A stretch of 37,557 nt of DNA from a virus, in the IMG/VR virus record IMGVR_UViG_3300012931_000049, positions 1-37,557 of that record; one strand, given 5' to 3'. Numbering within the stretch: the stretch's first letter is position 1; each line of letters begins with the position of its first letter. Shown piece by piece: positions 2 through 35,200 of the stretch. The notes beneath the pieces were generated by a model. That model ran no database searches and was not told the DNA's origin. It saw nothing but the letters and a program-made list of their open reading frames with translations. The position numbers were made by a program, and so were the translations under genes.

Positions 2-3000
2 TCTGGTGCTATTTCTGGCGGAAAGAATATTTTTGGTCGCGGAGTAAATTTTGCTAAGGGGCTTATGCCAGATCAGTTGACGCGAAATGCTTTTAAAGAT
101 ATTTTTGGCGGACTAAAATCTGGAATTGCGAAGTCTACAAGAGGTTTAATAAATTATATAATTCCGCCTAATACTGCTCGTGCAGCTATACGAGATATTT
201 TAATGGATATGATTAAGCGTCCTAATAAAAAATCTAAATTTGCTACTGGTGGAACAATATCTGGTCCTGGTGGTCCGCGCGAAGATAGAGTGCCTATAAT
301 GGCAAGTCCTGGAGAGTATATAGTAAATGCTAACGCTGCCAAGAGTATAGGCTATAATGCGTTGGATCATATGAATACTACTGGCACTGTACCATCCTTT
401 GCTGATGGTGGCACCATTTCTGAAAGAGATAAGATTATTGCACGTATGCAGGCTACTGTGGATAAGTACAAGGCAGAATACGGAGATATTAAAACTGAGG
501 AAACAAAACCTATAGAAGAAAAGCAAAGTATATTTGATGCATTTAAGGGTGCTGTTTCTGCAGGTGTAGAAAAAATAAGAGGCCAGTCGTCTACAGAAGG
601 TGAAACTTTTTCTGCCGAGGAAGTGGCAAGGAGAATAGATGAACGTAAAAAACAACAAGAGGAGTCACTTAAATACGCAGATGGTGGTATAATTTCTGAT
701 CGCGATAAAAAAATAGCTGGTATACAAGCGTTTGTTGATAAGTATAAATCTGAAATTCCAGAAGAAAAAATAGAGGAAAAGAAAAATCTTTTAGATAAGT
801 TTAAAGAAAAAGTTGTTTCTGGATTGAGTGCGACATCCTCTGGAGTGGCTACTACTATAAATAAATTGAGAGGCCAGTCGTCTACAGAAGGTGAAACTTT
901 TTCTGCCGAGGAAGTGGCAAGGAGAATAGATGAACGTAAAAAATTACAGGAATCTATTGGATATGCTGGTGGTGGCAAGATAGATAAATATATTCAACAA
1001 CTTTCATCTACAAAAGACTTATTATTAAATAAGACTTCTAAAGATTTAAAATTAGATAAGTATGCTGATAAGTGGCTTACATATAAAGGAAAGGAAGAAA
1101 TTCCTATAATAGCTAACCCATTGATAGACCCAACTACGATGATAGCCGCTGGTGGTGGTGCTGCAATGACTGGATTAAAATTAGGTACTACTGGTGCTAT
1201 AGAATTGATAACTAAGTTACTTGGGTCTTCTATGGCTCAAGCTACTCCAAAAATGGCTAATTCTTTATCTAACTCTATAGAAAAATTTAATTACGACCGG
1301 TCTATATTTGGTAAAGGATCTTCTGGTGGTGCTGGTGTTTCAAGTAGTTTTGAAGGTAACTATACTAAATATTCATCTAAAACTAAAGGTGGATTAAGCG
1401 ATGCTTCTAAAGAAGCCATTGGTCAAATTTTAGGTCAGGCAGGTTTACCAGATGGGATGGATGCTGTAATTTCTGAAGTTATTTCTGGTAAAGATGCTTT
1501 TACGCAAGGTATGGGATATGATTCTGGTGGAGAAGTAGTAGATAAGAAATTACCAGAGATGCAAGCTTCTATAAATAGTATGTTAGATCCTTTTAGATCT
1601 AAATCTACTGAAGAAATTTTAGCCTCAAATAAAAATTATCGGGGCGAAATTACGGCGTCTCCTAAATTAGAAGGTCTCCATGATGCTATAGGAGATTTAA
1701 TTCCTTTTGCTGAATTTAATAGAAAAAAATTAAATGCTGGTCCAGAAGGAACCCCGGCACTAACAGAGTTTATGAATGCGCTAAGTTATGTCATTCCATC
1801 GGGAGAGGTTGGTAAAGGCACTGGATTAATTTCAGCTGTATCTACTAAAATAGGTAATTTTGCTAAAGGATTATTTGGCAAAGAAAGTGCCCCAATGTTT
1901 AAATCTGCCGAAGAAATCATTGCTCATTTTACTCAAGGTATTACAGAAGGAAAGGGTATAACTGATATAGCTTATGCATTAGGTGAGTCTATGAAAAAAG
2001 TCGGGAGTAAAGAATCTAATATGAGGATACTTGGCGAGACTAGCCAATCACTTGCATCTCAGATAAAGAATATAAAAGGGACCGAAATAGTTGATCTTGA
2101 GAAGAAGATGCAATTAACCCAACTGAGACAGGGGCCTCATGAGGCCATGGAAGCTTTAGTTAGAACCGGTACTGGGATAGAAGAAAAAACTGCAGCTAAG
2201 AATGTAGTAACTAAGTATTTAAGTAATATGGATGATTTTGCTAATTCTGAAATTAGTGGTCTTTCTAATAAGTCTACGCAGGGAAAATTCGGTAATTTAT
2301 TGGATTCTGTAGTTAGTAAGTTTGTGCCTAAACATCTGTCTAATGCGAGTAAATTATCCAATACTATTTCTAAACAAGCCGCTGATAAATTTAAAAAAGC
2401 TGGTTTAGATATAAAAGTAGATTCTACTAGTTTATTTGATGCTTTATTGAGTACTCCTGCAGACAAATTAGACGCTGTTATTCCTAATTATACTAAAACA
2501 TTAGATAGTATGGCTGCTGTAATAGAAAAAGTAGGTGCGCATAGGTTTAATTTTAAATCTATGACGTTTGGAGACCCAATAGTTAAAGGAGTTCCAGAGA
2601 GTGGTTCTTCTATAATAGGTCAATTTAATTCAGCTAAAGGTAATATAAATTTATCTAAGGAATGGTTTACTAAGCCGCTGTCTGAAATTGATAATGTGAT
2701 AACAAATACTATGTCAGGGCCGGCTGGTGCACCTAATAGATTATCTCATAATATAAATATAATGGACAAATCGGAGTTTTTTCCACATATAGGTACACAT
2801 GAATTGGGGCATTCTTTATTATCTGATTCTCCAAAAGATGCTTTTATTAAAGGTATATTCGATGAAGAGGCGCGCGTTTTAAAAGAAGGAGAGTGGTTAT
2901 CGCTTATTGGAGATTCTAAAATTAATCATCCAGAAGTTATGGAATATAATGCGCCTAGTGCGTATGCCCTTACTTCTCCTGGAGAATATTTTTCAGAGAC

Positions 3001-4042
3001 CTTTGCTTCAGCTTTTCATACGCGTAGGGATGCATCTGTTGAGGCAGCTAAATTATTAAAAGATACTTATGGTATAAAATACGCCGAAGGTGGAATGATT
3101 TCTACGATACAGACCAAGGTTCAGGAAAAATTTCAAGGGCTGCTAAATAAAGTAATGGATATAGCTCCTAAAGTTGGAAAGTCTTTATTTGGATCTTCTA
3201 CTCCTAAAGGTGAGACATTGTCAACTTTTGAAATTGCTAGAAGATTAGGTGATGAAAAAACTAAGAAAGAAAAAATGTTGGAAGATATACTTGGCAATCA
3301 AGATAATAAAATACCTACTTTTCATAAAGGTGGGGTAGTACCTGGTGTAGGAGAACAATTGGTATATGCTCAGGGGGGAGAAATAGTAGCTCAGCCTATA
3401 TCGGCTAATAGTGGTGTTTCTTCTGCTAGTGCTGTGGATGCTGAATCTATAGGAGCTAAAATAGGAGATATTATAGCTGATAAGCTAAGCTCAATAGAAT
3501 TGAAACCGGTAAAACTTGAAAAAGATACTGTTGAAATATCCAATATATCTGATTTAGAGTCGGCATTATCTAATTTCAATAGTAATAGGACGGGTGTAGG
3601 CGCAGAGAAATCCAATACCAAGATAGACGAGTTTATAGATGCTGCTAATTCTAGATTTGATGATTTTTCTGGCAGGTTTGATGGATATGATGCTAAGTTT
3701 GAAGATTTAGAAATTAAACTAACTGCTATTAATAAGGAAGGGAAAATATCTACAAATTCAGTGGACGTAGATGATATAAACTCTAGATTGTCTGAATTGG
3801 ATAGCAAAGTTTCTAATTTAATAAGTAAGGATGACTTAATGATTAAATCTAATATGGATAATTCTAGTTTGGAATTAAAACTACATGAATCTATAGCATA
3901 CATAGAGACTAACTATATATCCTCTATAATTAGTAAAGTAGGGAATCTAGAGAGGCAAATCAATACGTTAAAGTCTGATATTAATGAGGCAAGAGATGTG
4001 GCGGATTCTAATTTTGGTAGATTAGGTTTAATGAGAGGATAA
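2..4042 (+). CDS. Tail tape-measure protein, 3' part (5' truncated)
   Basis: At least 1346 residues. The frame is open to the left edge: 21 sense codons precede the first ATG at 65, so that ATG is probably internal even though AAGGGG lies just before it. The N-terminal stretch at 239-390 has the Gly-Gly/Pro-Gly pattern common in tape measures (FATGGTISGPGG, then ASPGEYIVNANAA). Variants of this Gly-Gly linker recur about eight times (FADGGTIS at 398, YADGGIIS near 673, YAGGGKID near 961, YDSGGEVV near 1519, YAEGGMIS near 3078, FHKGGVVP near 3320, YAQGGEIV near 3364) and separate blocks of helical sequence. A zincin motif HELGH lies at 2798-2812. The last ~300 residues are a heptad-like coiled coil ending in GRLGLMRG. 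Tape measures span the tail tube, set its length and are ejected with the DNA. The hub-like gene follows after 6 nt. Identity as a tape measure is strong; the role of the embedded modules is inferred. Confidence 0.88.
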   Translation, partial: SGAISGGKNIFGRGVNFAKGLMPDQLTRNAFKDIFGGLKSGIAKSTRGLINYIIPPNTARAAIRDILMDMIKRPNKKSKFATGGTISGPGGPREDRVPIMASPGEYIVNANAAKSIGYNALDHMNTTGTVPSFADGGTISERDKIIARMQATVDKYKAEYGDIKTEETKPIEEKQSIFDAFKGAVSAGVEKIRGQSSTEGETFSAEEVARRIDERKKQQEESLKYADGGIISDRDKKIAGIQAFVDKYKSEIPEEKIEEKKNLLDKFKEKVVSGLSATSSGVATTINKLRGQSSTEGETFSAEEVARRIDERKKLQESIGYAGGGKIDKYIQQLSSTKDLLLNKTSKDLKLDKYADKWLTYKGKEEIPIIANPLIDPTTMIAAGGGAAMTGLKLGTTGAIELITKLLGSSMAQATPKMANSLSNSIEKFNYDRSIFGKGSSGGAGVSSSFEGNYTKYSSKTKGGLSDASKEAIGQILGQAGLPDGMDAVISEVISGKDAFTQGMGYDSGGEVVDKKLPEMQASINSMLDPFRSKSTEEILASNKNYRGEITASPKLEGLHDAIGDLIPFAEFNRKKLNAGPEGTPALTEFMNALSYVIPSGEVGKGTGLISAVSTKIGNFAKGLFGKESAPMFKSAEEIIAHFTQGITEGKGITDIAYALGESMKKVGSKESNMRILGETSQSLASQIKNIKGTEIVDLEKKMQLTQLRQGPHEAMEALVRTGTGIEEKTAAKNVVTKYLSNMDDFANSEISGLSNKSTQGKFGNLLDSVVSKFVPKHLSNASKLSNTISKQAADKFKKAGLDIKVDSTSLFDALLSTPADKLDAVIPNYTKTLDSMAAVIEKVGAHRFNFKSMTFGDPIVKGVPESGSSIIGQFNSAKGNINLSKEWFTKPLSEIDNVITNTMSGPAGAPNRLSHNINIMDKSEFFPHIGTHELGHSLLSDSPKDAFIKGIFDEEARVLKEGEWLSLIGDSKINHPEVMEYNAPSAYALTSPGEYFSETFASAFHTRRDASVEAAKLLKDTYGIKYAEGGMISTIQTKVQEKFQGLLNKVMDIAPKVGKSLFGSSTPKGETLSTFEIARRLGDEKTKKEKMLEDILGNQDNKIPTFHKGGVVPGVGEQLVYAQGGEIVAQPISANSGVSSASAVDAESIGAKIGDIIADKLSSIELKPVKLEKDTVEISNISDLESALSNFNSNRTGVGAEKSNTKIDEFIDAANSRFDDFSGRFDGYDAKFEDLEIKLTAINKEGKISTNSVDVDDINSRLSELDSKVSNLISKDDLMIKSNMDNSSLELKLHESIAYIETNYISSIISKVGNLERQINTLKSDINEARDVADSNFGRLGLMRG
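578..652 (+). repeat. 75-bp perfect direct repeat, copy 1 (in tape measure)
   Basis: Identical to 869-943 over 75 bp, offset 291 bp (97 codons, in frame). It encodes RGQSSTEGETFSAEEVARRI followed by DERKK and forms the end of a duplicated helical module (KFKEKVVSG.. / AFKGAVSAG..). Identity at third codon positions implies a recent duplication or gene conversion. Confidence 0.95.
869..943 (+). repeat. 75-bp perfect direct repeat, copy 2 (in tape measure)
   Basis: Second identical copy of 578-652. A third, strongly diverged copy at about 3190-3263 encodes GETLSTFEIARRLGDEKTKK. The module therefore occurs three times in the protein, only two copies being alike at DNA level. Confidence 0.95.
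2530..3090 (+). other. Embedded zinc-metallopeptidase (lethal-factor-like) domain
   Basis: Inside the tape measure, the codons at 2798-2812 read His-Glu-Leu-Gly-His, a perfect HEXXH zinc site preceded by FPHIGT. About 58-62 residues downstream, GEYFSETFASAFH (Glu codons at 2984-2986 and 2996-2998) supplies the third-ligand glutamate expected of gluzincins. It resembles the EFFAEAF segment of the anthrax lethal-factor (ATLF) peptidase family. The preceding segment ending in NRLSHNINIMDKSEFFPHIG fits the strand and helix before the active site in such enzymes. It could cut host envelope or virion proteins during entry. The two motifs are seen directly; family assignment is from memory of the pattern; the substrate is unknown. 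Confidence 0.72.
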
Positions 4043-4048
4043 TAAATA

Positions 4049-6115
4049 ATGCCAATAATTCAAGATGATGGTATATACGATTGGGATGTATTGAATAAGA
4101 TGCTAGTTGGAAAAGGAACTGGCGAAGGAGATACATTTTCTAATATACCGGCCGGTAATGGTGGGATAAATGATATAGCTTCATATATATTATCTAATGC
4201 AGGCATACCTTTTAATAATATAAAAGGGGCTGACCTAGCAGGGTTTGATATATTAAATAAAGATGCCTATTCCGTGATGCATTTATCTTTAATGGCTAAT
4301 GGTGAGTTTGGTGAGGTTTACGATGATGGAACAGGAGTTGCCTCATTACATACAATAGGAGGCAACCATGGTAGTTTTGATGTATTATGGTCTATTTCAA
4401 GTGATTCATATGCATTGCCGTGTAATAATGTACTTGTGATAGGTGCGGATCCACCTCCTACTAGATCAATTGGTAGCACAATTAATTTGTATGAATTTGC
4501 TAGCAAAGTTAAACCAACTACTGGTGAGGTAGATACTACAAAAAAAGAATTTCCTAAAATAACAGTTTTTGGTGAAATATTAGGTGCAGAGGCCTGCAGA
4601 TATGCATTTGATGGGTGTATAGAATATGGGTATGATCCATATTATCTTAAAGACGCTGATCCAACAGCGCTGTCTGATTTGAAGTTGTATGATCCAACAA
4701 AATTTGAATCTATACTTTTGTATGTATTTCAGATGAATGTACCATTTTATGATTATAAGAATACTACTATACATTTTTCTAATACTTCTCCTAGATATTA
4801 TGAGTTAGAAGGTTTTGGTACCCTTCATACAAGAGCATGGATATCTGATGAAAGATATACGGCTCCATACTGTGTAGATGGCAAATTCACTATTCCAAAT
4901 TCTGGAGATGGCATAGATCTTCCTGACAGTAATTTACTTGGATTTCAAAAAGTATCAGCTGTTTATATTTATGGTTATAAACTGAATACTATTAGGATTT
5001 GTGAACAATATAGTGGTTATGGGGTGTCAGAGGGGGACGCTGATTTTTTAGTTACACTGGACACCATGTACAATGAGCCTATAGCATTATCAGAAGGAGA
5101 TGATTATGTTATAGTTCAAGGTGATGGTGATAAGCCATCTAAGATAGTTTTTTCTTGTAATGTTAGAGAAGAATATTTATCTAAATATGGAGGAATGCTT
5201 TCAGATAATGGCGTATCTTTTAAAATAGATCCATCTTGTTTATATTCTTCTTCTTCTAAAGATAGTGCTGTAAAATCAACCACGGATGATGATGGTAATA
5301 CGGTGGGGTTTTTAAACGATACTTCATATACTACGCAAATATCTAGTGGATATGTATTTAATGGCATTAAAATATTTCCAGTAGGTCAAGGAGACGCTGG
5401 ATATGTTGTTAATAAAATAGTGGTTGTATACGATTGGGATAGTCCATGTATATTAATACATGATAATAGGAACATCATTACTTCAGATGTATTATCAGAA
5501 GTATCTATATATTTTACACCTATAATATTAATAGATAAGCCTTCACCTGTTTCTCTGAATGGTTCTACTATAGATAGGGGCGATGAGGTTCAAGATAATG
5601 ATATTGGTACAGCACAATCAAAAGAAACTAAATTTCAGGTTGCTCAAGATTCTATAAAAGGCGGCGATTTACAAGTAACGTTGCCTTTTGCAGATCAAGA
5701 CTTATGTAATTCTATTGCGAATAGAATGTCTACTCTTATGAGTACATATGATTCTACTAGTAATATAACATATATGTGCGGCCCTTATTCAAATCCAAGG
5801 TTGTGCGGTGCATATGACGGAGGAATAATTAATGAAATAGATTTTTCTTATCAAGATAGTAGTCAATATACGGTGTCTTTTTCAATAGGATCAGCTCATG
5901 CATCTTTCAATACCTGCGATGTGGCACTTCATGAGCCTACTACTCAGGATGTTCAAACACTTGGTACTGTAATAAGTGTATCTGAAGATAATTCATGGGC
6001 TAATGTAAGACTTAATAAACTTGGTATTATGAGTTGTATAAATTGTACACGTGATTTTATATTTCCAGGGGATAGGGTTAATGTATATATTTATAATAAC
6101 CCATCGTGGTTATAA
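4049..6115 (+). CDS. Tail hub / baseplate hub-like protein
   Basis: 688 residues, starting 6 nt after the tape measure with a GAGAGGA ribosome binding site. Residues ~70-120 (DILNKDAYSVMHLSLMANGE, then FGEVYDDGTG) resemble the segment of hub proteins in which a pre-defined sub-problem of sampled dG/hub domains ends in a 'GE.y.d..G' turn. Residues ~538-620 contain an LPFADQDLCNSIANRM helix, then EIDFSYQDSSQYTVSFSIGS, typical of the hub beta-layer that repeats 'sy.DsS.y.v.isiG'. The last ~50 residues (638-688, GTVISV...WANVRL...FIFPGDRVNVYI) look like a small OB-fold or SH3-like barrel. The place directly after the tape measure is where distal-tail, hub or tail-associated genes sit in many tailed phages. 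No lytic domain is recognised. The hub role is inferred from position and fold pattern, not from a clear family match. Confidence 0.55.
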   Translation: MPIIQDDGIYDWDVLNKMLVGKGTGEGDTFSNIPAGNGGINDIASYILSNAGIPFNNIKGADLAGFDILNKDAYSVMHLSLMANGEFGEVYDDGTGVASLHTIGGNHGSFDVLWSISSDSYALPCNNVLVIGADPPPTRSIGSTINLYEFASKVKPTTGEVDTTKKEFPKITVFGEILGAEACRYAFDGCIEYGYDPYYLKDADPTALSDLKLYDPTKFESILLYVFQMNVPFYDYKNTTIHFSNTSPRYYELEGFGTLHTRAWISDERYTAPYCVDGKFTIPNSGDGIDLPDSNLLGFQKVSAVYIYGYKLNTIRICEQYSGYGVSEGDADFLVTLDTMYNEPIALSEGDDYVIVQGDGDKPSKIVFSCNVREEYLSKYGGMLSDNGVSFKIDPSCLYSSSSKDSAVKSTTDDDGNTVGFLNDTSYTTQISSGYVFNGIKIFPVGQGDAGYVVNKIVVVYDWDSPCILIHDNRNIITSDVLSEVSIYFTPIILIDKPSPVSLNGSTIDRGDEVQDNDIGTAQSKETKFQVAQDSIKGGDLQVTLPFADQDLCNSIANRMSTLMSTYDSTSNITYMCGPYSNPRLCGAYDGGIINEIDFSYQDSSQYTVSFSIGSAHASFNTCDVALHEPTTQDVQTLGTVISVSEDNSWANVRLNKLGIMSCINCTRDFIFPGDRVNVYIYNNPSWL

Positions 6116-6142
6116 TATTAGATAGTTTTAAGGGGATATATT

Positions 6143-6715
6143 ATGGCATCAATAACATATCAATCTATTAGAGCAACTGTTACAATAGGAGGAACATCTT
6201 ATAGTACTCCAGATGTAATATCGTTTAATGTAAAGAGAACAAGAGGACAGATGTGTGCTACAGCCAGTGCCACTGTTAAAGCTAGTAGTTCAACTATTAG
6301 CGGTGGTTCATCTGGAGGTGCGTTACAAATTAAATGTAATAATATCACAATATTTACAGGTATAATTACTAGTTGTTCTGCCAATCCGCTCAGAACTGAT
6401 TGTAATAAGTTTTCATTAAGTGTTTCTGGTAAAGATATGATGTTCGCTTTGGAGGGTCAGACTTTTAATAGACGTCTTACAGGTGGAACTGCAGGTACAA
6501 GTAGGTTTGGATCTATAACATCTATTGTGGAAGATAATTCTGCTATACGACCTACATTTAAAGCTAAACAAGTATCTGCTATTACAACCGGTATGTTTGC
6601 AATACCTAAGACCGATATAACATATACTCCTGATGCGTATGGCAGTAGCGCCGATAGGTCTATAGGAAAACCTTCAGGAGGTTTAGTAGTAAATGATCTA
6701 GGATATGTAGAATAA
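6143..6715 (+). CDS. Hub N-terminal-domain-like virion protein
   Basis: 190 residues, with RBS AAGGGGAT 8 nt before ATG. Residues ~8-110 follow the pattern of the first beta-domain of tail-hub proteins (phage late-control D or gp27-like): a G-T-S-Y start strand, then VISFNVKRTRGQMCATASATV, then LQIKCNNITIFTGIITS, then FSLSVSGKDMMFALEGQTFN. That pattern is 'interface defined, unit I with value, integrated, and local operator'. Hub proteins normally carry this domain at the N-terminus of the same chain as the rest of the hub. Here it is a separate small protein encoded after the 688-aa hub-like protein. The remainder (112-190) is Gly/Ser/Thr-rich and not recognised. It probably assembles with the 4049-6115 product at the tail tip. 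Confidence 0.5.
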   Translation: MASITYQSIRATVTIGGTSYSTPDVISFNVKRTRGQMCATASATVKASSSTISGGSSGGALQIKCNNITIFTGIITSCSANPLRTDCNKFSLSVSGKDMMFALEGQTFNRRLTGGTAGTSRFGSITSIVEDNSAIRPTFKAKQVSAITTGMFAIPKTDITYTPDAYGSSADRSIGKPSGGLVVNDLGYVE

Positions 6716-6746
6716 ACAAATTAATTATATTATGGAGTAAATATAA

Positions 6747-7121
6747 ATGGCTTCAGACTCAACTTTAATAAATTATGATAAGTTTCAAACTGTTACTTCT
6801 TGTGCAGTAGGTCATACTTTAAGAATAACTAGACCGCTTGGGTATCCACCAGTAAAGGATGCTGAAAATGGAGGCTTTAGGATATTATATCCAAAACTGG
6901 GTAGTTTTATTAATATTGATTCTACAGGATACGTTGATTACTTACATGAAAATAGTGGAACTCAGGTTATAGAATATATATCAAATAGTTTAGGTCATTA
7001 CATTTTTTCATTAGTAATTCAAGGCGTACTTGTGCATGATCATGCTAGTATGTCTATGGGTGGTCCGGCTTTTGCTACTTATTTTAGTGATATAGGCTCT
7101 ATTACTACTTCTGAGGAGTAA
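6747..7121 (+). CDS. Hypothetical virion-type protein, 124 aa
   Basis: Not recognised. It starts at ATG 6747 after a TATGGAGT ribosome binding site. The sequence is beta-rich with no signal peptide or membrane segment. A His-containing turn (VLVHDHASMSMGG, residues ~92-104) stands out and could bind a metal, but this is not a known motif. It lies in an uninterrupted run of small genes between the hub-like genes and the fibre block, only 7 nt before the next gene, so a structural tail-tip role is likely by context alone. Confidence 0.6.
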   Translation: MASDSTLINYDKFQTVTSCAVGHTLRITRPLGYPPVKDAENGGFRILYPKLGSFINIDSTGYVDYLHENSGTQVIEYISNSLGHYIFSLVIQGVLVHDHASMSMGGPAFATYFSDIGSITTSEE

Positions 7122-12982: not shown

Positions 12983-15900
12983 ATGTCTTATGAGAACATA
13001 AATTTTTCTAAGCCGAATATGGTTATGTCCGACGGTTATTTTTTTATGTTTGATGAAACTAGTAATATAGCGGTTCAAAAAACTGCTTCAGGAAGTATAG
13101 TTTTTATTTATCCGTTGAGTATAAAACTAACTTACTTAGAATCAAGTAATGTTCTTAGTGCGGTCAAGAGTTTACAATATGATGGTAGGTATTTTTGGAC
13201 ATTGCAGTCTATAACCTCTACCAGTGAGCCTGTAATAAGGCAATGGTTATTCAATAATTACGAATGTAAGTTACAACAGGAATTTATTTTATATAATACT
13301 TCTACACAAACATATAATGCCAATTCATTTGCTATAGAACATTATAAAACAAAGCTTCTTTACCCAATTTCTGAAGGCACTTTAATACTCAATACCGAGG
13401 AGTACTATGATAGCACAATTACTTCTGGCACTATACTTTCGATAGGTCCTAATGGTTATGATTATTGTGAGGATGTTGTAGTTAATGAAGTGGTTGGTTC
13501 GGACATAATTCTAACTAGTGGGACACAATATTCCTATGATGTGGATGCCCAAGTAATTCTAAGTAAAAGCATATTATTATTTAATGAATATTATGGTACT
13601 ACTAGTACAAGTGGGTCTTTAATAAGATTTGATAGTCATAGTGGTGATTTTTTATCTTCAGATCCAAACACGGATTATAAGTCTGTTATCGCGGCAACTT
13701 TTGCGCGGGTACAAGGAATGCTTCGTGATAATGAACAAGATGTCTATGACACAATTGATGACGCTTATACTTTGATTTATGTCAAAAGTACTAATGCTAA
13801 GTTTAGAAATTTATCTGATTTATTATCCACTCAGCCAGCTAATAGTGTGAATTATAGTTTTACTGGGGTTAGCGGATCTTTACCCAATACTACTATGTGG
13901 AATATAACTAGTGGCGATCCTATGCTTTACGATGATGCTTTACTTATGAGCACTTCTATAAATGGACACGACGAAATAAAATCAAACTATGTACTCATGA
14001 ATGATTTTGATGTTCAGATTAGTGGTTCTTTATCTAATGGATTTGCGATAATAGATCAAGCTAATTCTACTTTCAGACATTTTATGAACTCTACGATTAA
14101 CAATACTTCTTACGAAATAGGAGTTATGTATAATCATGCCGACGCAAGTACGATAAGTGGATGCTCTGTAGAATATACTATGGACTCTGTTAGTGGAACT
14201 ATATTATATGATACAAGTGGTTATGGGCACAGTGCTACTACTTCAGAGGTAACCTACACATACGGTAAAATAGGTAATGCTCTGGTAATAACCGATAAAA
14301 CTGATTATATAAAATTAAACACATCGGTTAGTGGATCAATAGTAAGTGTGTCCATGTGGTATTATTTTGATGGAACTGGCAATAATTATAATACTTTAAT
14401 AGGAAGAGATGGTCCTACATATCAGCATTTACTAGTTAGCGGCACTTCTAATTTAATTGGTTTTTGGAATAATGGGTGGTATTCTTCTGGGGCTACATTG
14501 ACATCTGGGTCTTGGCATCATTTAGCACTTATAAAAAATGGTACTAATTCAAAACTATATTTAAACAATACTTTAGTACAGAATTCAAACAGCTCTTTTA
14601 ATAATGCTACTTATCCAATGTCTACTTTGGGTAATTATATTTCTATTAGTGGCACTCAAGGGAGCTTGGGTAAATTAGATTGTGTTAGAATTTATGATGG
14701 TATAGGGCTTACTGATTCAGATATAAACACTTTATATATGGAAGGATACTATGGGACTAACATAGACCATCCTTTAGTATATACCACTGTTAGTGGGGCA
14801 GTATCTACTATAGATGCTTTTACTACAAATATAAATGACACAAAAATATTATATACCATGGATTCAGTTAGTGGTACTATAATCTACGATGATATTGGAT
14901 CCAACTATGCTACCAACTCTGGTATAACATACGCGAGTGGTGTTATTAATAATGCCGCAGTAATAACTTCTAAAAGTGATTACATTGAGCTTAGTCAGCC
15001 TATAAATAGTTCTAACGCAAGTATTTCTATGTGGTATTATTTTGATGGATTTGGCGGGACTACAAACACATTGTTAGGTAATGATGAATTAGGTATAATG
15101 CCTTTATATGTTAGTAGTTCTACAAACTATTTATCAGTGTACAATCATATAGGATACGAATCTAGTGGTCCGGCACTTATATCTGGTACATGGTATCATA
15201 TCGTGTTGGTAAAAAACGGGACTAATTCTAAAATATATCTGGATAAAGATTTGATTCATGATATAGATACGGCTTCAGATAATGCAATGTATCCTATTCA
15301 AACAATAGGTAATAAAAAGCAGCGCTATTTTTCTGGTACTAGTGTAGATCAGGTGCCTACTATGACTTCTAATACTGCGCCATCTGGTATAGCGGCAGCT
15401 AGTTCTGTATATTCTGCTTATTACGCCTATAAAGCTATGGATAATTCTACATCCACTGCTAATAGATGGCAATCAGCCGTAGGTACCACTGGTTGGCTGT
15501 CTTACACATTCATTACGCCTACAATAGTAAATAGATACACTATGTCTGGATATACTACTTCTACCTATTCTCCAAATACTTGGATTTTTGAAGGATGGAA
15601 TGGGAGTTATTGGGAATTGTTGGATTCAAAATCAGGAATTACTTGGACTGCTTCCGAAAAAAAGACTTACGACATAAATAATTCTACGGCGTTCATAACA
15701 TATCGTATTACTATAACAGCCAATAATGGTGGAGCTTATGTTATTATTCAAGAATGGGAATTAATAAATACTGGCGTATCTACAGATAATTTAACCAGAG
15801 GTTCTATAGGTAAGTTTGATCAAATAAGAATATTTGATAGAGAGATAACTGTGGATGAGATAGAAGAATTATATGACGAGAGATATTATGGTATAGCGAT

Positions 15901-16591
15901 TCCATCAGATGATTATATGCTTAGATTGGTAAGAGATTCAGGTGTGCTATATTATTATTATAAAAATATTATTTCTGAAGTAGATACTGGCTGGACTTTA
16001 ATAGGATCAAATCCTACAGGTATCTATGATGGTAATATTTCGTTAGGATTATATTCAGATGGAATAACAGTTTCCGGTGCTATATTTGATGATTTAACTT
16101 ATAACAGTGGGTATGTTAAATATCCTATATCTGAAATACCTTATTATGGTATAATGACTATGGATAATCTAAAAGTAGATAACACCACAGTTATTCCAAT
16201 ATATGCTTTATCATATTATGATGGTACATTATATCGTTTACAGATTTCGGCTAATTACTATGGTACTAATTATACGTGGTCGACTTATAATTATGTAGTG
16301 TCCACAGCCAAATCTTTTATGGATTCAATGACTGTGACGGCTTATCCTACTATATTACCTGCTGATGGTAGGAATGTTTCTGAAATTACATGTATTGTGT
16401 TGGATCAATATGGGAATGGGAAAATAAATTCACCAGTAACTTTTACTGATGATGATGATTATGGATATATTACTATAAACCCACAGAATACAGATTATTA
16501 TTATGGTAATGGCGAGTCGGTTACATATTACAAAGCTGGAGTAGATATACATTCAGTTACTATAACAGTTACCGCTACTCAATATGATTAA
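12983..16591 (+). CDS. Fibre paralogue 2 with nested LamG, discoidin-like and ConA-like insertion
   Basis: 1202 residues; RBS AAGGGGG lies 10 nt before ATG. The first ~285 residues and the last ~155 align with the 420-aa paralogue (GYFFMFDETSNIAVQKTASG, WLFNNYECKLQQ, LIYVKSTNAKF; then LSYYDGTLYRLQ and a Big_1-like Ig domain from ~1115). Between them lies an extra ~760 residues. First is half of a ConA-like fold (~289-390). LamG 1 follows (~397-594: YTMDSVSGTILYD, VSMWYYFDG, SWHHLALIKNGTNSKLYLNN). LamG 2 runs ~624-970 and is itself split by a discoidin-like domain (~788-937). The second half of the ConA-like fold (~972-1042: YMLRLVRDSGVLYYYY, NISLGLYSDG) closes the insertion. LamG and discoidin domains usually bind glycans, so this is probably a receptor-binding fibre. 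Confidence 0.72.
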   Translation: MSYENINFSKPNMVMSDGYFFMFDETSNIAVQKTASGSIVFIYPLSIKLTYLESSNVLSAVKSLQYDGRYFWTLQSITSTSEPVIRQWLFNNYECKLQQEFILYNTSTQTYNANSFAIEHYKTKLLYPISEGTLILNTEEYYDSTITSGTILSIGPNGYDYCEDVVVNEVVGSDIILTSGTQYSYDVDAQVILSKSILLFNEYYGTTSTSGSLIRFDSHSGDFLSSDPNTDYKSVIAATFARVQGMLRDNEQDVYDTIDDAYTLIYVKSTNAKFRNLSDLLSTQPANSVNYSFTGVSGSLPNTTMWNITSGDPMLYDDALLMSTSINGHDEIKSNYVLMNDFDVQISGSLSNGFAIIDQANSTFRHFMNSTINNTSYEIGVMYNHADASTISGCSVEYTMDSVSGTILYDTSGYGHSATTSEVTYTYGKIGNALVITDKTDYIKLNTSVSGSIVSVSMWYYFDGTGNNYNTLIGRDGPTYQHLLVSGTSNLIGFWNNGWYSSGATLTSGSWHHLALIKNGTNSKLYLNNTLVQNSNSSFNNATYPMSTLGNYISISGTQGSLGKLDCVRIYDGIGLTDSDINTLYMEGYYGTNIDHPLVYTTVSGAVSTIDAFTTNINDTKILYTMDSVSGTIIYDDIGSNYATNSGITYASGVINNAAVITSKSDYIELSQPINSSNASISMWYYFDGFGGTTNTLLGNDELGIMPLYVSSSTNYLSVYNHIGYESSGPALISGTWYHIVLVKNGTNSKIYLDKDLIHDIDTASDNAMYPIQTIGNKKQRYFSGTSVDQVPTMTSNTAPSGIAAASSVYSAYYAYKAMDNSTSTANRWQSAVGTTGWLSYTFITPTIVNRYTMSGYTTSTYSPNTWIFEGWNGSYWELLDSKSGITWTASEKKTYDINNSTAFITYRITITANNGGAYVIIQEWELINTGVSTDNLTRGSIGKFDQIRIFDREITVDEIEELYDERYYGIAIPSDDYMLRLVRDSGVLYYYYKNIISEVDTGWTLIGSNPTGIYDGNISLGLYSDGITVSGAIFDDLTYNSGYVKYPISEIPYYGIMTMDNLKVDNTTVIPIYALSYYDGTLYRLQISANYYGTNYTWSTYNYVVSTAKSFMDSMTVTAYPTILPADGRNVSEITCIVLDQYGNGKINSPVTFTDDDDYGYITINPQNTDYYYGNGESVTYYKAGVDIHSVTITVTATQYD
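13845..16125 (+). other. ~2.3-kb nested domain insertion relative to tandem paralogues
   Basis: This segment of 12983-16591 has no counterpart in the neighbours at 11705 and 16604, whose flanking sequences (FVKSTNLLF / YVKSTNAKF before, YYG...SVYDLAMDGQNVYRL / YYG...ALSYYDGTLYRL after) match across it. Inside, the order is ConA half 1 (13848-14150), LamG 1 (14171-14770), LamG 2 first part (14846-15343), discoidin-like domain (15344-15796), LamG 2 last part (15797-15900), ConA half 2 (15901-16110). Boundaries are by eye and uncertain by about 10 codons. Confidence 0.65.
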
Positions 16592-19838: not shown

Positions 19839-20546
19839 ATGAAAAAGTTGATGTACACATTTGTTAAAAACGAATTTGAAAAAGAGGGTTACGAATTATT
19901 AGATGATCATTATATAAATTCCAGACATAAGTTGAATTACAAATGTAATAGAGGGCATTATCATAGTATTACTTTTAGGGATTGGAAATCTAAAAGAAGA
20001 TGCCCTATATGTAGTATAGATAAAAGGGCATCTAAACGAAGATTAGATTTTGATGTAATTAAGAAATCTTTTGAATCTGAAGGATATATACTTACTGATG
20101 ATTTAAATTACAAAAACAATGATCAGCTTTTAGAGTTCATTTGTCCTAATGGGCATAAACATAAAATGAGTTATCATAACTGGAAAAATGGATGGCGGTG
20201 TGTGTATTGTCGTTATGAGAGGCAATCAAGGGTTTATGTTGGTCCAAACAGTTCTCAATGGAAAAGTGGTATTGCGCATGAACCATATGCACCAATTTGG
20301 GGTGATAAAAAATTCAAGGAATCAATAAAAGTACGTGATAATTATGAATGTCAAAATCCACACTGTTGGCATAAAGACAAAGTATTACATATCCATCACA
20401 TTGACTACAATAAAAAGAATTGCGATGACTCTAATTTAATAACGCTGTGTAGAAGCTGTAATGCTAGAGCCAATAATAGAAGAGGCGGTTGGCAGCAACT
20501 TTATGAAAATATTATACAGTTAAAATATAATTTTAAGGAGGACTAA
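19839..20546 (+). CDS. Free-standing HNH homing endonuclease with two Zn-ribbon-like repeats
   Basis: 235 residues. The HNH domain lies at ~165-215: VRDNYECQNPHCWHKDK, then LHIHHIDYNKKN with His184, His186 and His187, then DDSNLITLCRSCNARANN with Asn199. The paired CxxC-type cysteines are typical of HNH endonucleases. The N-terminus holds two copies of a ~50-residue unit, EGYELLDDHYI...CNRGHYHSITFRDWK...CPIC and EGYILTDDLNY...CPNGHKHKMSYHNWK...CVYC, which resembles zinc-ribbon DNA-binding repeats found in phage HNH proteins. The enzyme probably nicks or cuts a related phage's allele to spread itself. Its last codons, AAG GAG GAC TAA, contain the RBS of the next gene, so it sits exactly in front of that gene's native signals. 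Confidence 0.88.
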   Translation: MKKLMYTFVKNEFEKEGYELLDDHYINSRHKLNYKCNRGHYHSITFRDWKSKRRCPICSIDKRASKRRLDFDVIKKSFESEGYILTDDLNYKNNDQLLEFICPNGHKHKMSYHNWKNGWRCVYCRYERQSRVYVGPNSSQWKSGIAHEPYAPIWGDKKFKESIKVRDNYECQNPHCWHKDKVLHIHHIDYNKKNCDDSNLITLCRSCNARANNRRGGWQQLYENIIQLKYNFKED

Positions 20547-22250: not shown

Positions 22251-22280
22251 ATATATTTTATGTTGGATAGCTCTTTTTGT
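22232..22280 (+). terminator. Intrinsic terminator upstream of endonuclease gene
   Basis: The left arm AAGAGCTATTCAA (22232-22244) pairs with TTGGATAGCTCTT (22263-22275): 13 bp with one G-T wobble and an 18-nt AT-rich loop. A T-run interrupted by one G follows (TTTGTTTATT, from 22276). It would end the transcript of the upstream structural genes and insulate the endonuclease gene. It is the only clear terminator in the window. Confidence 0.75.
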
Positions 22281-22297
22281 TTATTATAGATAAAATC

Positions 22298-23194
22298 ATG
22301 CGTGGTGGAATAAAAAAGAAATTAGATGAAAGTAAAGATTATATTATTTACTTATATAAAACTGGATACACTCAGAAAGAGATAGCTTCTATCTTTGATG
22401 TGAGTCAGGGTACTATAGGCAGAAGATTAAATAAATGGGGAATTATTACAGCTGTACCCATAGACAATGCTGTATTAAAAAATATGTATATAAATGATTG
22501 CCTTACTTGTAGAGAAATAGCTGCATTTTTTAATGTTAGCACTTCTTGTATAAATTATAAATTACACACATTAGGCATATATAGCAAAAGTACTTGGCGT
22601 CCATTTGTTAAAACATTGTTGCGAAAAGATATTTCTAAGGGCATTATCTATAATTTGTATTATAATAAGAAACTAAGTATGTCTGAAATAGCTAATGGAT
22701 ACGGATGTAGTAGATCTTCTATTGGAAGAAGATTTATGGAGTATGGTTTAAAGCCAAGGGATAGAGTAGAAGCACATTTAAAGGGTAAAAAACATCCCAA
22801 TTACGGAAAGCCAATGTCTATTGCCGCAAAAATAAAACAATTAAATACCATAAAAGGCAAGACCATTGTAATAAAATCCTATGGTAAAGGTAATGGTGCC
22901 TATTATGATACACCACACCAAGGTAGAATGTGGATGAGGTCTGGCTGGGAATTAAAGGTTGCAGATTATCTAACTTCACAAAGTAAAGATTGGTATTATG
23001 AATATAAATGGTTGGACATTGGTGATACGCATTACTTACCAGATTTTTATCTACCAGTTGAAAATAAGTACATTGAAGTTAAGGGATGGAAAACCGATAA
23101 GACCATGAAAAAATATAATATAGCTAAAGAGATTTATGAAATAGAGTTGTGGGACAAAACAAAATTAGAGTCAATGGGAATATCAATAAGATAA
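22298..23194 (+). CDS. Free-standing PD-(D/E)XK homing endonuclease
   Basis: 298 residues from ATG 22298; a TTG at 22277 in the same frame lies in the terminator tail and is rejected. No good RBS precedes it. Three helix-turn-helix units fill the first half: TQKEIASIFDVSQGTIGRRL, CREIAAFFNVSTSCINYKL and MSEIANGYGCSRSSIGRRF. A short NUMOD-type motif follows (HLKGKKHPNYGKPMS). The C-terminal nuclease core reads RSGWELKVADYL (Glu218), then YEYKW, then YLPDFYLP (Asp249) and YIEVKGW (Glu260, Lys262), the D...ExK catalytic pattern of Vsr-like and PD-(D/E)XK homing enzymes. Transfer from another phage is likely. It probably targets the neighbouring structural genes; the cleavage site is unknown. Confidence 0.86.
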   Translation: MRGGIKKKLDESKDYIIYLYKTGYTQKEIASIFDVSQGTIGRRLNKWGIITAVPIDNAVLKNMYINDCLTCREIAAFFNVSTSCINYKLHTLGIYSKSTWRPFVKTLLRKDISKGIIYNLYYNKKLSMSEIANGYGCSRSSIGRRFMEYGLKPRDRVEAHLKGKKHPNYGKPMSIAAKIKQLNTIKGKTIVIKSYGKGNGAYYDTPHQGRMWMRSGWELKVADYLTSQSKDWYYEYKWLDIGDTHYLPDFYLPVENKYIEVKGWKTDKTMKKYNIAKEIYEIELWDKTKLESMGISIR

Positions 23195-29255: not shown

Positions 29256-32200
29256 ATGTCATATAATTTTCTAAGAGAAGCCAGGTCAATAAAAAATTCA
29301 TTTCTATGTAGATATGATACACTAGACGCCTATTCTTCTAATTTTGTTACAAATGGCGATGTTGATAGTTGGACAATTTATAACAATATATGTATGTATG
29401 GCTGTTGGAATGGTATATTATTTGGCACGGCTTACGATAGGGAATGCTATATAGGTAGGAGCACTTCATTGTTGCCTATTCCTGCCGAAACTTATTATAT
29501 TGTGCGTATATTAATGAAACTGACTAATAATAATACTCAGAAAACTGTAAGTGGGTTAACTACTGGGAGATTGCGGTGGACTTATGTTGGGGATACGTTG
29601 TGGGGCTCTGATAAGCAAATAGATTTTGATTTAGTTGATGATGATGCGTGGCATCTATATGAAATTAATGTTGGACCAAGCCAGTATTGGCAGGGCGATA
29701 TCAATAACCTGCGTGTGTACCCTTTTGTTGATGGATGGTCAGGAGATCAATTTGCTATAAAATATATAAAAATAACATCTATAGATGCATATGCATGCCA
29801 AAATACTCAATGCGAAAAATATTTATATTATTCTCACCCATGCCCATGGACTGGCGATCGTGGTAGTTGTGAAGCTGGTATTGGTAAGACTACTTATACC
29901 ACTATTTCAGGAGTAAGTGATAAATTAATATTAAATATTGATGGATACGGCGAAGAAAAATTTGATTTGGGGACTAATTTAAATTTTACTGCGGTAGAAA
30001 TGTCAAAATTAATTGCCAATAAAATAGCATCTATAAATATTGGGGGCTATAACTATTCTGAAGTAGAGTATTCTGAAAATGAGAAGTTAAAAATATATTC
30101 AGGCAATGTAGGTAATGATAGTACTGTATCTATATCTGACAATACCTGTGCGCGTGAACTTGGATTTTTTGATGCTGCGGGTAATAATATTTCTACTACT
30201 ACAACAGGTGTAGAGTCTGCTGATGGATTTGATTACGCCGCATCTCGTATGTTAACTTCTTTGGAAATAAATAGGATAACTGATGGAGATACAATATCAA
30301 TTTCTTATACACACGACCCAGACAAATATAGCGTAGAAGCCGGAAGACGCGATTTTAATGCTATTGGTACGCCAACACTAATATCTAGTCTAACCGATAA
30401 TACATCTTCTGATTATGCTTCTTTTGATAATACTGATAAAACTATTATAGATTTATCGCATCCAGTAAATAATAACGGACGACTAAATAGTATTTATGTT
30501 TATGGCAAGATATCTACTTTATCTAAAGTAAAAATACTTAGACCTTATCGCGACGGGACATTAAAAGTTATTTATAGCTTGGACTTACCTTTACAATCAT
30601 CCAGTTATATCTATACTTCTGTGCCTCTAAATTATAGATTAGATTGTGATGTATTAGTAAGCAAAGGTGATTTGATTGGTGTGTATAATGTTGATTTATA
30701 TGTAGGTACTTCTGCCAAAGGTTTACCTGATGCCATCTTTCATCAAGTAGTAGGAGATCCTTCGGTAGGAGATATTATTGATAGCGGTAAGATTCATTCT
30801 TTTGGTATTACAGGATTTGCTATTTATGCCAAAGGTAATAGACTACAAAATAATGTTATTCTTGATATAGACTTTGGTGATAGGATTAATATAGAAGAAT
30901 TAAATATCTATGGCAAAGAAGAGTCTAGTTCTTTTGAATATAATGTGGCGGCTTGCTTAGATACAAGTTGGTCTGTTAATTTATATGGTGGCACTCATCG
31001 ACATACTGGTACAAATATTTTGACAGCCCTGGGATGGACTAAATATCATACTAATGTGGCTTATGGTATTAGCTGTTTAGACGATTGTATTACTACGGCA
31101 GATAATGGCCAAGTGGGTGAGTCATATTCAGTTAATAGCTCTACTGGATTAGTTACGGCAGGGGATAACCACTCTTATTTTTATGTTAATGGTGATGCTG
31201 AATGGCTATATTCATATACATGCGATGGTAGACATGAATACTGTTATCCTAATTATTGTGATACTACTGATTTATTTATTACAGATCCAATATCTTTTAC
31301 TATGTATTTTCCATATAATTATACTATACCGATACATAGAAGTATAATCTATTTTAAAGAGATGGATAATTTTAGAAAAATTGAACTAGCGTATTATAGA
31401 GGAACTTCTTATGAATTAGGGAACGCTACGTATGATTCTACTATGCAGCGTGTGCCTAGTTATACCAGTATAAAATTAAATGGACTAATTCATTTACCTG
31501 ATGAAAGTGAGTTGAGTCCATATCTATTTAATAATCCAACCAACGATGACGCCATCTATGCTAGCGCAGATGGATTATCCGACTTAAGTAACCCCGAAGA
31601 ATTTGAAGCAGCCATGTATTCCGATTGGACTATCTTGGAGCATAATTTTGAGGCTATTGATTGCCAAGGATTTAGAATATTTACTAACAAACACCATAGC
31701 ACCAAGATAATAGAAATGGAATTATATAGTACAATTGATACGTTGGCTTCACTATCCGATAATGTTAATTTAATATTTTCTGATTATGGTGATGTGTGGA
31801 GCACTGCTCAATTTGTAGAAAGATCTTCCTCAGAATTAAGTGCATTTATTGGAGGAGCTCCTAGGTATATGAGGCTATCATTTGAATCATCCACATCATT
31901 CATTTTAAATGAGGTGGAATGTTTGGTTGGGGATCAAGTAAAATTATCGGATTGTGGGGACACTGTTTTATTAAACGACGCCAAATCTAATGCTATAGGG
32001 GCATCTACTGGTGTTTCTTTACAGAATGTTTATGGGGCTCCCTTTGATTTAATCGTGACCATTCCTGTAGAAGTTTCTAATAGCGAAGATTTGGTTTTTT
32101 GGAACAAATTAAATTCTGCGGAGGATGTAGATGACCCTCAAATTGGGCCTGGATGCAGACTATATAAAAGCGATGATTATTATATCGGTAATGATAATTT

Positions 32201-35200
32201 TCTTTGTTCTATAAATGCGCCTGCGTATGGATTAAAGAATTTAGTTAATGATAAAAAAGCTTATGTAAATAAATATATATATGATGAATGGTATGATGAA
32301 TATGGTACTTTATATAGTGGAGTCTCTATAGATTTTAATAACAGTGATAGAAAAAATATTAAATATTCAATGATAGATTTTTCGACATTTAATACTTATA
32401 GATATTATAAAATAGGCTTTGATAACATATCAAGTAATTTTAGTTTAAAAGATATAATACCTTATAAAAATGATGACCAATTATATATAGATAAAGTATC
32501 TCTAAGTGGTACATCTGATAGTGGTCTGGTAGAATACTTTATAGATTCTAATGGATTTAATCTTCCTACTTCATCTGGTACTACAACAGATATTACCACG
32601 GATGATGCGGTAGGGATTCATCTTACACCAACCGACGATGTGGTAAATAAAATAAAACTATTTCATACTGCTGCCAATTTAAATCAAGTTTCATTATACG
32701 GCAGTAATGATAATACTACTTATGACCTAATATCTTCATCTGGAACCATTACTACTAGTAATTCTAGTTGGTATGAATATTTTTCCATAGACCTAGAAAA
32801 AAGACATGACTTATCTATTATTCGTAATTATGGCAACGCTACTAATAAATTATCGTTGGGTATTACGGAAAATATAGATTTCTCTAATAGCGATACAGAC
32901 GACGTCTATGCTGTTAGTTGGGCAAATAGTACTTATAATGACGCACGCTGGGTAAGAATAAAATTATTATGCGGTGATGGGTCTGATAGGTATTTGAGAA
33001 AACTGGGAATATATCCAAACATTTCTACAGCATATTGTGTGGGTAGTAGCCCAGGGTATAATTGTGAATGGGAATCTTTGGGAACTATACTTTCAGAATA
33101 TAGTAATCCAGTAAATATTGCTTATGGCGCCACAATTTCTGGTAGTAGTTATATTCTAGACTATTACCCATCCAACGCTATAGATGGTTTTAATACTAAA
33201 TATGATTTTAGTTCTTGTTGGGGTGTTTCTGGAACTAATAATTATATTGAACTAGATTTTGGTGATACTTATAAGATAGATAAAGTTATTGCCTACAATG
33301 GATATGATACAGGAGATGCTGATTTTATAAACACGGCTTATAATTTTTCTGTATCTACTTTAGCTAGCGGATCGTCTTTTACTACAGTATTTTCAGTTAC
33401 TGGAAATGACACTCATAATAGAACTCATATATTTGATCCTGTATATGCTAGAAGAGCTAGATTCACTATTACAGCATATACTGCTAATAGAATTTTTTAT
33501 ACAAATTCAGATGGGGATAAAGAGTCATTTGTCCCAGCATTTTTAAGAGAGCTAGAAGTATTTACTTATATAGACGAAGGCTATGTAGATAGCGAAACGT
33601 GGCCTGTAGTGGCGATAGACCTTTTAGAATCTTTTAATATAACCGGTCATGATATAGTCAATCTGTCTACTCAAACCACAGAATCTGGAACAGATTGGGA
33701 TAATATAGATGATTATTTTAGATATTCCGATAGTATTTATTCGGACCCCCAAAAAGTAATTTTTAATAGGTCGGGAAGTGTTGTGTATGCTTATACCACT
33801 GCCTCTGCTACTGGAGATTTGGCTGATATTGCTACGGAATATACTTTTGATGACGCTGTGTATTTTGATGTTGGTGGATATAGCGTTAGTTGGAAAGCTT
33901 ACGACCCAACCACGGAAAATGAGATTAGTTTATATTTTATTGGACCTGATACTGTTTCAGTTAATGCCACAAATCTTGGGGATAGTGCTTATATAGATCA
34001 ACTTAGTACTGTATATATAAAAACGGCAGGAAAATATTCCATTAAAGCAGTACAGAATGAATCTATAGAAAATTCATGGGGGGCTAGTAATATTTCTATC
34101 TATAGAAGTGCTGGATTGGGCAGATGGATATCTATAACTAGAGATACTGCTACTAATTATTCTTTTAATGGTGATTCTGATGATTATGGATTAGATTACC
34201 TAAGCCAATTGAAGGTCTATGGTGATGAAAGATATGCTCCAACAGAACATTCTTTATGGTGGCAATCTATTTTAAGTACTTTGAGCAATGATGGTTATAT
34301 GGTGATGGCTGGCGCTAAATCCTTGAAAATAGAGTATCCAGCTTCTTCAGGCATAGATACACTACAAGTTATGGAGGCGGATGATTTTGGAGAAGATTTA
34401 TATTTTAGTCCGAAAGATTTTTTACATTTTTATTTATATGTAGACGATGCGACATATTTAGATACAACTTATGGCGATATAACATTTGGTTCTTTAAATG
34501 AAACGCCTACTTTTTATTATTTATGGACATTATCAGGAATAAATTTAGTGTCTGGATGGAATGATATAAAGTTGAAATTTGAAGATGCTAATGAGACCTA
34601 CCCTTATACTGATGTGGAAGAAATGTATAGTAGGATTAATACGTTATTGAATTTTAGAACTAATAATAGAAATATAAGATCTTTTAGGATGCGCTACAAA
34701 GGTATTGGCAATGCTTTTACTATGTATATTGATGATTTGAAAATACAGCGCAATCGATTTGAGGACACAACTAAATTTGGAAATGGTCTATGTTTAACTA
34801 ATACTGATTATTTAGAGGTACCATTGTCTAGTTTAAATTTAGAATATGGAAGCATGGAGTTTTATATCAAACTTTATACTAGTACTAATGGTACTGATAT
34901 TTTTGGAGATATGCTTTCTAGAGTTCTGTTTACATTTATAAATAATAATAATGATATGATATCGTTGGGTATAAAATCTGGCTTTTGGTTTTCGCTTCAT
35001 AGTGGAAATGCTAGGACTTCTTTGAATACGTTCGAAGTTACCTTGAATGATATACCATCTAGATATATGTACGATAGAGGTGAGGTGGTTCATATAGGTG
35101 TTTCGTGGAGTAATGATGGCACTCATATGGATAATGACGATACTATTAGATTATACTTAAATGGTGAAGCTGTATGTAGTGGTAAGACTACTTGGGAAGT

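Follow-up and report, generated by a model that had tools for sequence, protein, structure and literature searches.

Lectin-type domains nested at three levels in a putative tail-region protein of an uncultured virus, and relatives at intermediate stages

Nested domain insertion has been catalogued in ECOD, where recursive insertions follow the logic A1-B1-C1-D-C2-B2-A2, the inserts fold independently and are usually smaller than their hosts, and up to six levels are reached in the cyanobacterial RNA polymerase rpoC2 (PMC13114784). Regarding phages, domain shuffling in receptor-binding proteins is documented (PMC10684548). Furthermore, in the 'evolved' Dit and Tal proteins of siphophages a CBM is inserted in the galectin domain or the 'arm' of a conserved tail protein (PMC9437275, PMC8540738), and in dairy phages such insertions bind host polysaccharide (PMC9437275).

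Here we analyse a window of 37,557 bases, that is, the whole stretch of DNA studied, which is the record of an uncultured virus in IMG/VR. A first-pass annotation of this DNA had proposed three levels of insertion in a single protein, and the sequence evidence supports each of them: a ConA-type domain within a scaffold, two LamG domains within the ConA-type domain and a discoidin within the second LamG. This protein (P0001) is the product of gene B, the second of three tandem paralogues A, B and C. Gene B follows the same recursive logic as the insertions in ECOD, but its inserts are lectin-type and lie in a phage tail-region gene, their total size exceeds that of the scaffold, and the same gene has empty, one-level and two-level relatives. 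The nesting had been called unusual, although recursive insertion itself is known. Evolved Dit and Tal, as presented in the passages cited, share with gene B the empty and filled forms, the insertion in a loop rather than at an end and the modules that vary by phage; nevertheless, theirs is one level deep, whereas the insert of gene B is itself a host, twice over. In the open-access literature, which was the scope of our search, we found no report of a phage protein with lectins nested this deep together with its intermediates. Nested insertions and lectin insertions of the evolved Dit kind are already known; gene B is a variant of these that goes deeper and whose intermediate forms survive.

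The scaffold and its empty site

The A-B-C tandem cluster is conserved in about 30 viral contigs, as found with scaffold and gene C profile searches, and in the window a tape-measure-like gene (65-4042; phrog_25241, 1.7e-10) lies upstream of it. This gene order suggests that the scaffold of gene B is a tail-region component. Its place in the virion is deduced from gene order because no relative of the scaffold was found by sequence in the PDB or among isolated phages. Relatives of genes A and C were not found among isolated phages either, a close DNA match of the window to phages was not found, and the whole inserted block used as a query returned nothing in the genome search. The coordinates of the features are given in Table 1. 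Two possible free-standing endonuclease genes, which might favour exchange at this locus, are found near the cluster, one with a weak HNH signal (19839-20546; 0.003, below the cut-off) and the other with a repeated HTH and weak NUMOD3/Phage_endo_I signals (22277-23194).

Table 1. Features of the A-B-C cluster and of the gene B protein
Feature	Residues	Position	Strand	Evidence or remark
Gene A, uninterrupted scaffold paralogue	420 aa	11705..12967	+	body profile, blastp; Big_1 1.2e-9
Gene B (P0001), nested protein	1202 aa	12983..16591	+	single uninterrupted ORF; second of A-B-C
Scaffold N-terminal part, all-beta	1-282	12983..13828	+	blastp gene A; AF2 pLDDT about 90 mostly
Inserted block	about 283-1052 (770 aa)	13829..16138	+	missing from gene A and 13 of 21 gene B copies
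Outer ConA-type domain, piece 1	286-388	13838..14146	+	uninterrupted-ConA profile 2-64, 4e-10
LamG1, uninterrupted	391-592	14153..14758	+	Pfam Laminin_G_3 3-150/151, E 1.1e-14
Probable outer ConA strand pair	593-614	14759..14824	+	resemblance to ConA segment; suggestive
LamG2, piece 1	616-787	14828..15343	+	Pfam Laminin_G_3 3-133/151, E 4.6e-10; 49% identical to LamG1
Discoidin / CBM32-like domain	about 788-930	15344..15772	+	phrog_17517; Foldseek CBM32
LamG2, piece 2	938-971	15794..15895	+	Laminin_G_3 132-150/151; 50% identical to LamG1 558-591
Outer ConA-type domain, piece 2	972-1046	15896..16120	+	uninterrupted-ConA profile 126-203, 3e-7
Scaffold C-terminal part and Big_1 Ig-like domain	1053-1202	16139..16588	+	blastp gene A
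Gene C, third paralogue: scaffold and ~440-aa extension	854 aa	16604..19168	+	body profile 1-396 on residues 1-412, 1.8e-31

Gene B is a scaffold of ~430 aa split by an insert of ~770 aa. The flanks had been said to match the uninterrupted paralogues, and this was the case: in blastp, residues 1-278 aligned with gene A 1-269 (E 6e-44) and residues 1051-1200 with gene A 275-419 (E 3e-22), while nothing of gene A aligned between both halves. A body profile made from 14 empty genes gave two complementary matches on P0001, 1-280 and 1049-1202, and the syntenic gene B of another contig (L002, 405 aa) aligned to 1-278 and 1058-1202 with few residues between. At the residue level, the empty site in the gene B of L044 reads '..YVKTTNLKFVNINTL-ANYGIMTMDNL..' and the filled site in the window '..YVKSTNAKFRNLSDLL[insert]..PYYGIMTMDNL..'. 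The limits of the insert in Table 1 derive from this alignment, and the block claimed originally (13845-16125) was close to them.

The scaffold had also been described as a fibre body, a term for which we found no support; it is all-beta, ends in a Big_1 Ig-like domain (Pfam, residues 1116-1197, 4.8e-5, under the curated cut-off) and lies downstream of the tape-measure-like gene. Nor is a propeller fold established for it by the matches of the full model to galactose oxidase, at an rmsd of about 24 A. Neither can gene B be taken as a Dit, given that no family match to a Dit belt or galectin domain was found for the scaffold in Pfam or PHROGs and that the scaffold has no sequence relative in the PDB; its evolved-Dit-like trait is the loop insertion together with the empty relatives, and its presumed status as a tail protein comes from gene order.

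Because this DNA comes from an uncultured virus catalogued in IMG/VR, one might think of a metagenome assembly chimera or misjoin. However, the gene is one open frame of 1202 codons, GC is even over all its modules (0.30-0.37), related filled architectures occur in independent metagenomes and two contigs from two data sets (L042 and L043) have identical A and B proteins, so that we find this explanation hardly credible. The even GC also means that no module looks recently imported.

The three nested levels

i) The outer ConA-type domain. We built a profile of 203 positions from three uninterrupted copies, the genes A of L017, L020 and L042. Its positions 2-64 matched P0001 286-352 (4e-10) and its positions 126-203 matched 966-1043 (3e-7), which are ordered and complementary pieces, and the genes B of L037 and L042 were matched in the same split manner. 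Furthermore, a strand-turn-strand at about residues 595-614 (LVYTTVSGAVSTIDAF), between LamG1 and LamG2, is similar to the segment of the ConA located after the insert in relatives. When these segments were aligned by hand, this stretch ranked first among 1185 windows against four relatives, and third against the two LamG carriers alone. The outer ConA therefore probably re-enters the chain between the two LamG domains, although this resemblance is suggestive only. If so, the ConA is interrupted at two adjacent loops and LamG1 and LamG2 are not simply back to back. Thus, the proposed split of the ConA by the LamG domains agrees with both profile pieces, but in place of a single interruption there are probably two, in adjacent loops.

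ii) The two LamG domains. Both lie inside the ConA, as had been claimed, and they are 49-50% identical to each other. LamG1 is intact and scored 55.2 bits with Laminin_G_3 (PF13385), and the two pieces of LamG2 stitched together scored 56.1 bits. Both values exceed the cut-off of 27.6 bits, as does the first piece of LamG2 alone (40.3); the second piece alone is short (~34 aa) and reached only E 0.18. A pattern search for further LamG relatives retrieved two distant loci and then none in genomes or viral contigs.

iii) The discoidin. The claim that it splits the second LamG is borne out by the Laminin_G_3 profile, whose positions 3-133 match ahead of the discoidin and whose positions 132-150 match behind it, so that LamG2 is interrupted near profile position 132. 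The discoidin matches phrog_17517 'tail protein' (2.4e-33), and its homologues in several phages and viral contigs are 36-45% identical, whereas the Pfam F5_F8_type_C model gave no match to it. Solved CBM32/F5-8C structures were the top Foldseek folds of its model (TM 0.73-0.77), and the nearest include galactose- and chitosan-binding CBM32. Among phage domains of phrog_17517, it resembles those of Lysinibacillus phage LC76P1, Brevibacillus phage Sundance and Erwinia phage RisingSun. In Sundance and LC76P1 the domain follows another beta domain and the sequences give no sign of a split LamG, whereas that of the window splits a LamG. The F5/8C and Laminin_G_3 lectin kinds are found in a second large protein of the window as well (29256-35564, 2102 aa), in which residues 1297-1410 match F5/8C (6e-10) and residues 1848-2021 match Laminin_G_3 weakly.

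Structure prediction, which the first-pass annotation had put forward as a check, could model only part of the protein with confidence. An AlphaFold2 run on residues 1-1199 with an alignment of 16 sequences gave confident models for the scaffold (pLDDT mostly 80-95), ConA piece 1 (mostly 65-89, residues 291-386), ConA piece 2 (mostly 70-90) and the discoidin (mostly 65-92). However, the pLDDT of LamG1 and LamG2, where the alignment has no real depth, was about 25, and residues 387-792 and 932-965 were below 50. A second run, on LamG2 with its discoidin (residues 612-975), gave a mean pLDDT of 48.5 and a pTM of 0.47, and its confidence was highest in the core strands of the LamG and in the strand and the helix that come after the discoidin; this model is compatible with the closure of LamG2, but does not prove it. 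In a fold search with the LamG2 model, the first places went to big lectin-type chains of two domains, for the most part the binding domains of clostridial neurotoxins. We rejected them as meaningless (rmsd >18 A, TM <0.22) and claim no relationship, and the only sensible matches were of ~100 columns to LamG, pentraxin and CBM66 at 3.7-5.3 A. Since the LamG domains have no confident model, it is from the sequence that LamG2 is expected to close physically around the discoidin.

That AlphaFold2 did not demonstrate the closure of LamG2, and the small size of the piece after the discoidin, would fit a string of complete small domains in tandem, with no re-entry of the chain. Against this, an uninterrupted host exists for every level: the scaffold in 13 empty gene B copies and most gene A copies, the ConA in the three genes A mentioned above, and the LamG in LamG1 and in the genes B of L017 and L020. 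Moreover, the pieces are ordered and complementary in profile coordinates at the three levels and no piece equals a whole profile. Therefore, we consider a string of tandem domains very unlikely; the sequence comparisons show nested order, empty sites and intermediates.

Relatives and order of assembly

We compiled 21 gene B copies, after reducing each set of near-identical contigs to one and excluding a few that were divergent or partial. Thirteen of them are empty, five are filled at the same body site (window, L017, L020, L037 and L042) and three elsewhere in the scaffold, namely L012 and L035 in a loop near position 100 and L038 in one near 200. At the shared site the near-complete series runs from empty to ConA alone, uninterrupted, in the genes A of L017, L020 and L042 (most gene A copies being empty), and then to a ConA holding one LamG in the genes B of L017 and L020 (Pfam Laminin_G_3, 1.6e-11 and 3.8e-10), an F5/8C discoidin in L037, two ~190-aa domains X in L042 (3745-6813; no Pfam match, 40% mutual identity) or LamG1 and the discoidin-bearing LamG2 in the window. 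In this way relatives are preserved at each stage from empty to ConA-filled, in agreement with the initial suggestion that modules are added without breaking the scaffold. In-place duplication of the inserted modules recurs, namely LamG1/LamG2 in the window, X/X in L042 and Z/Z in L038, the latter being two tandem ~110-aa repeats, 47% identical, at a third scaffold loop (gene B, 4933-6795).

Regarding the discoidins, that of L037 matches Pfam F5/8C and is closer to that of L035, whereas that of the window is of the phrog_17517 type. Given these differing types, a single inherited module in the window and L037 is unlikely. In L035 (5194-6831) the discoidin lies directly in the scaffold loop near position 100 and is 53% identical to the one within the ConA of L037, which means that a related module occurs at two different sites.

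Clusters with two copies only (A and C) were found in L015, L055, L057, L059, L061, L062, L064-L066 and L068, and all two-copy clusters are empty. Gene B may be an extra copy, freer to take inserts.

An alignment of all fragments with MAFFT was unusable, as it aligned fragments of the N terminus with the C terminus and discoidins with the Ig region, and a smaller, prechecked set took its place. The scaffold tree was rooted by midpoint only. In this tree all five B genes that bear a ConA group in a single clade with support 100, amid empty genes, and within it the window and L037 are sisters. Another clade with support 100 gathers the three A genes that bear a ConA, and the other tips are mostly empty. 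The simplest reading is that both paralogues gained the ConA at one and the same site, either independently or through exchange between them, and that its loop fillings varied afterwards. The opposite history, with an ancestral nested form and empty genes produced by precise loss of the insert, could draw on the fact that in one lineage genes A and B both have a ConA, and have it at an identical position, since an older ConA followed by losses would give that pattern. Nevertheless, the position of the ConA-bearing B clade inside mostly empty relatives, the separate clade of ConA-bearing A genes, the emptiness of all the A and C two-gene clusters and the different modules filling the same ConA loop make such a history unlikely, and gain is simpler, although the root is by midpoint only.

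Possible use of the nested modules and significance

Following the reading by gain, the three paralogous scaffolds would have loops that accept whole lectin-type modules. Gene B would first have taken up a ConA-type beta-sandwich at one tight turn of the scaffold, and a loop of this ConA would then have become a second socket, occupied by LamG, by a discoidin or by X domains in tandem depending on the relative. In the window, the LamG would have been doubled and the CBM32-like discoidin placed in the second copy, near its last strand, so that every new module may supply loops for the next insertion. Given that the chain goes into and out of every insert at a single loop, the host folds can still close and the place of the scaffold in the tail need not change.

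We consider it likely that the protein as a whole is a tail-region scaffold with a ConA socket whose nested lectin-type modules are displayed for host-surface glycans. If several modules that bind glycans were carried by a tail component already in place, they would serve to hold or scan the host surface; sugar binding by the modules is suggested by their folds, and the virion position and the benefit are likewise presumed.

Folds of the ConA-like, LamG and discoidin kinds are also used for contacts between proteins, and tails commonly bear Ig-like and beta-sandwich decorations. The nesting could accordingly be real and the modules be structural spacers or bind phage or host proteins rather than glycans. 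We regard such a role as rather improbable, because exposed loops in a tail-region protein have repeatedly received three unrelated lectin-type folds, the solved folds nearest to the discoidin include the sugar-binding ones named above, and the CBM insertions in Dit and Tal of dairy phages bind host polysaccharide (PMC9437275).

Returning to glycan display, we can tentatively propose that the outer ConA is a standing socket, retained chiefly for the ability of its adjacent loops to take in interchangeable lectins (LamG, discoidin and X pairs), although this is doubtful. If it were true, a phage could swap or stack receptor modules in a fixed frame, and in-place duplicates would become hosts in their turn.

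Nested insertions are usually known only as finished products. Here one family keeps the empty site, the first layer, alternative second layers and the third layer, and therefore one can read in what order the layers were assembled and can express each step and test it for folding and binding. The series shows how nested proteins are built without breaking the underlying protein. It points to a hot spot in a scaffold loop and to a second one in the inserted domain for the exchange of receptor-binding modules, and these could help when the variation of adhesins in uncultured phages has to be annotated and predicted.
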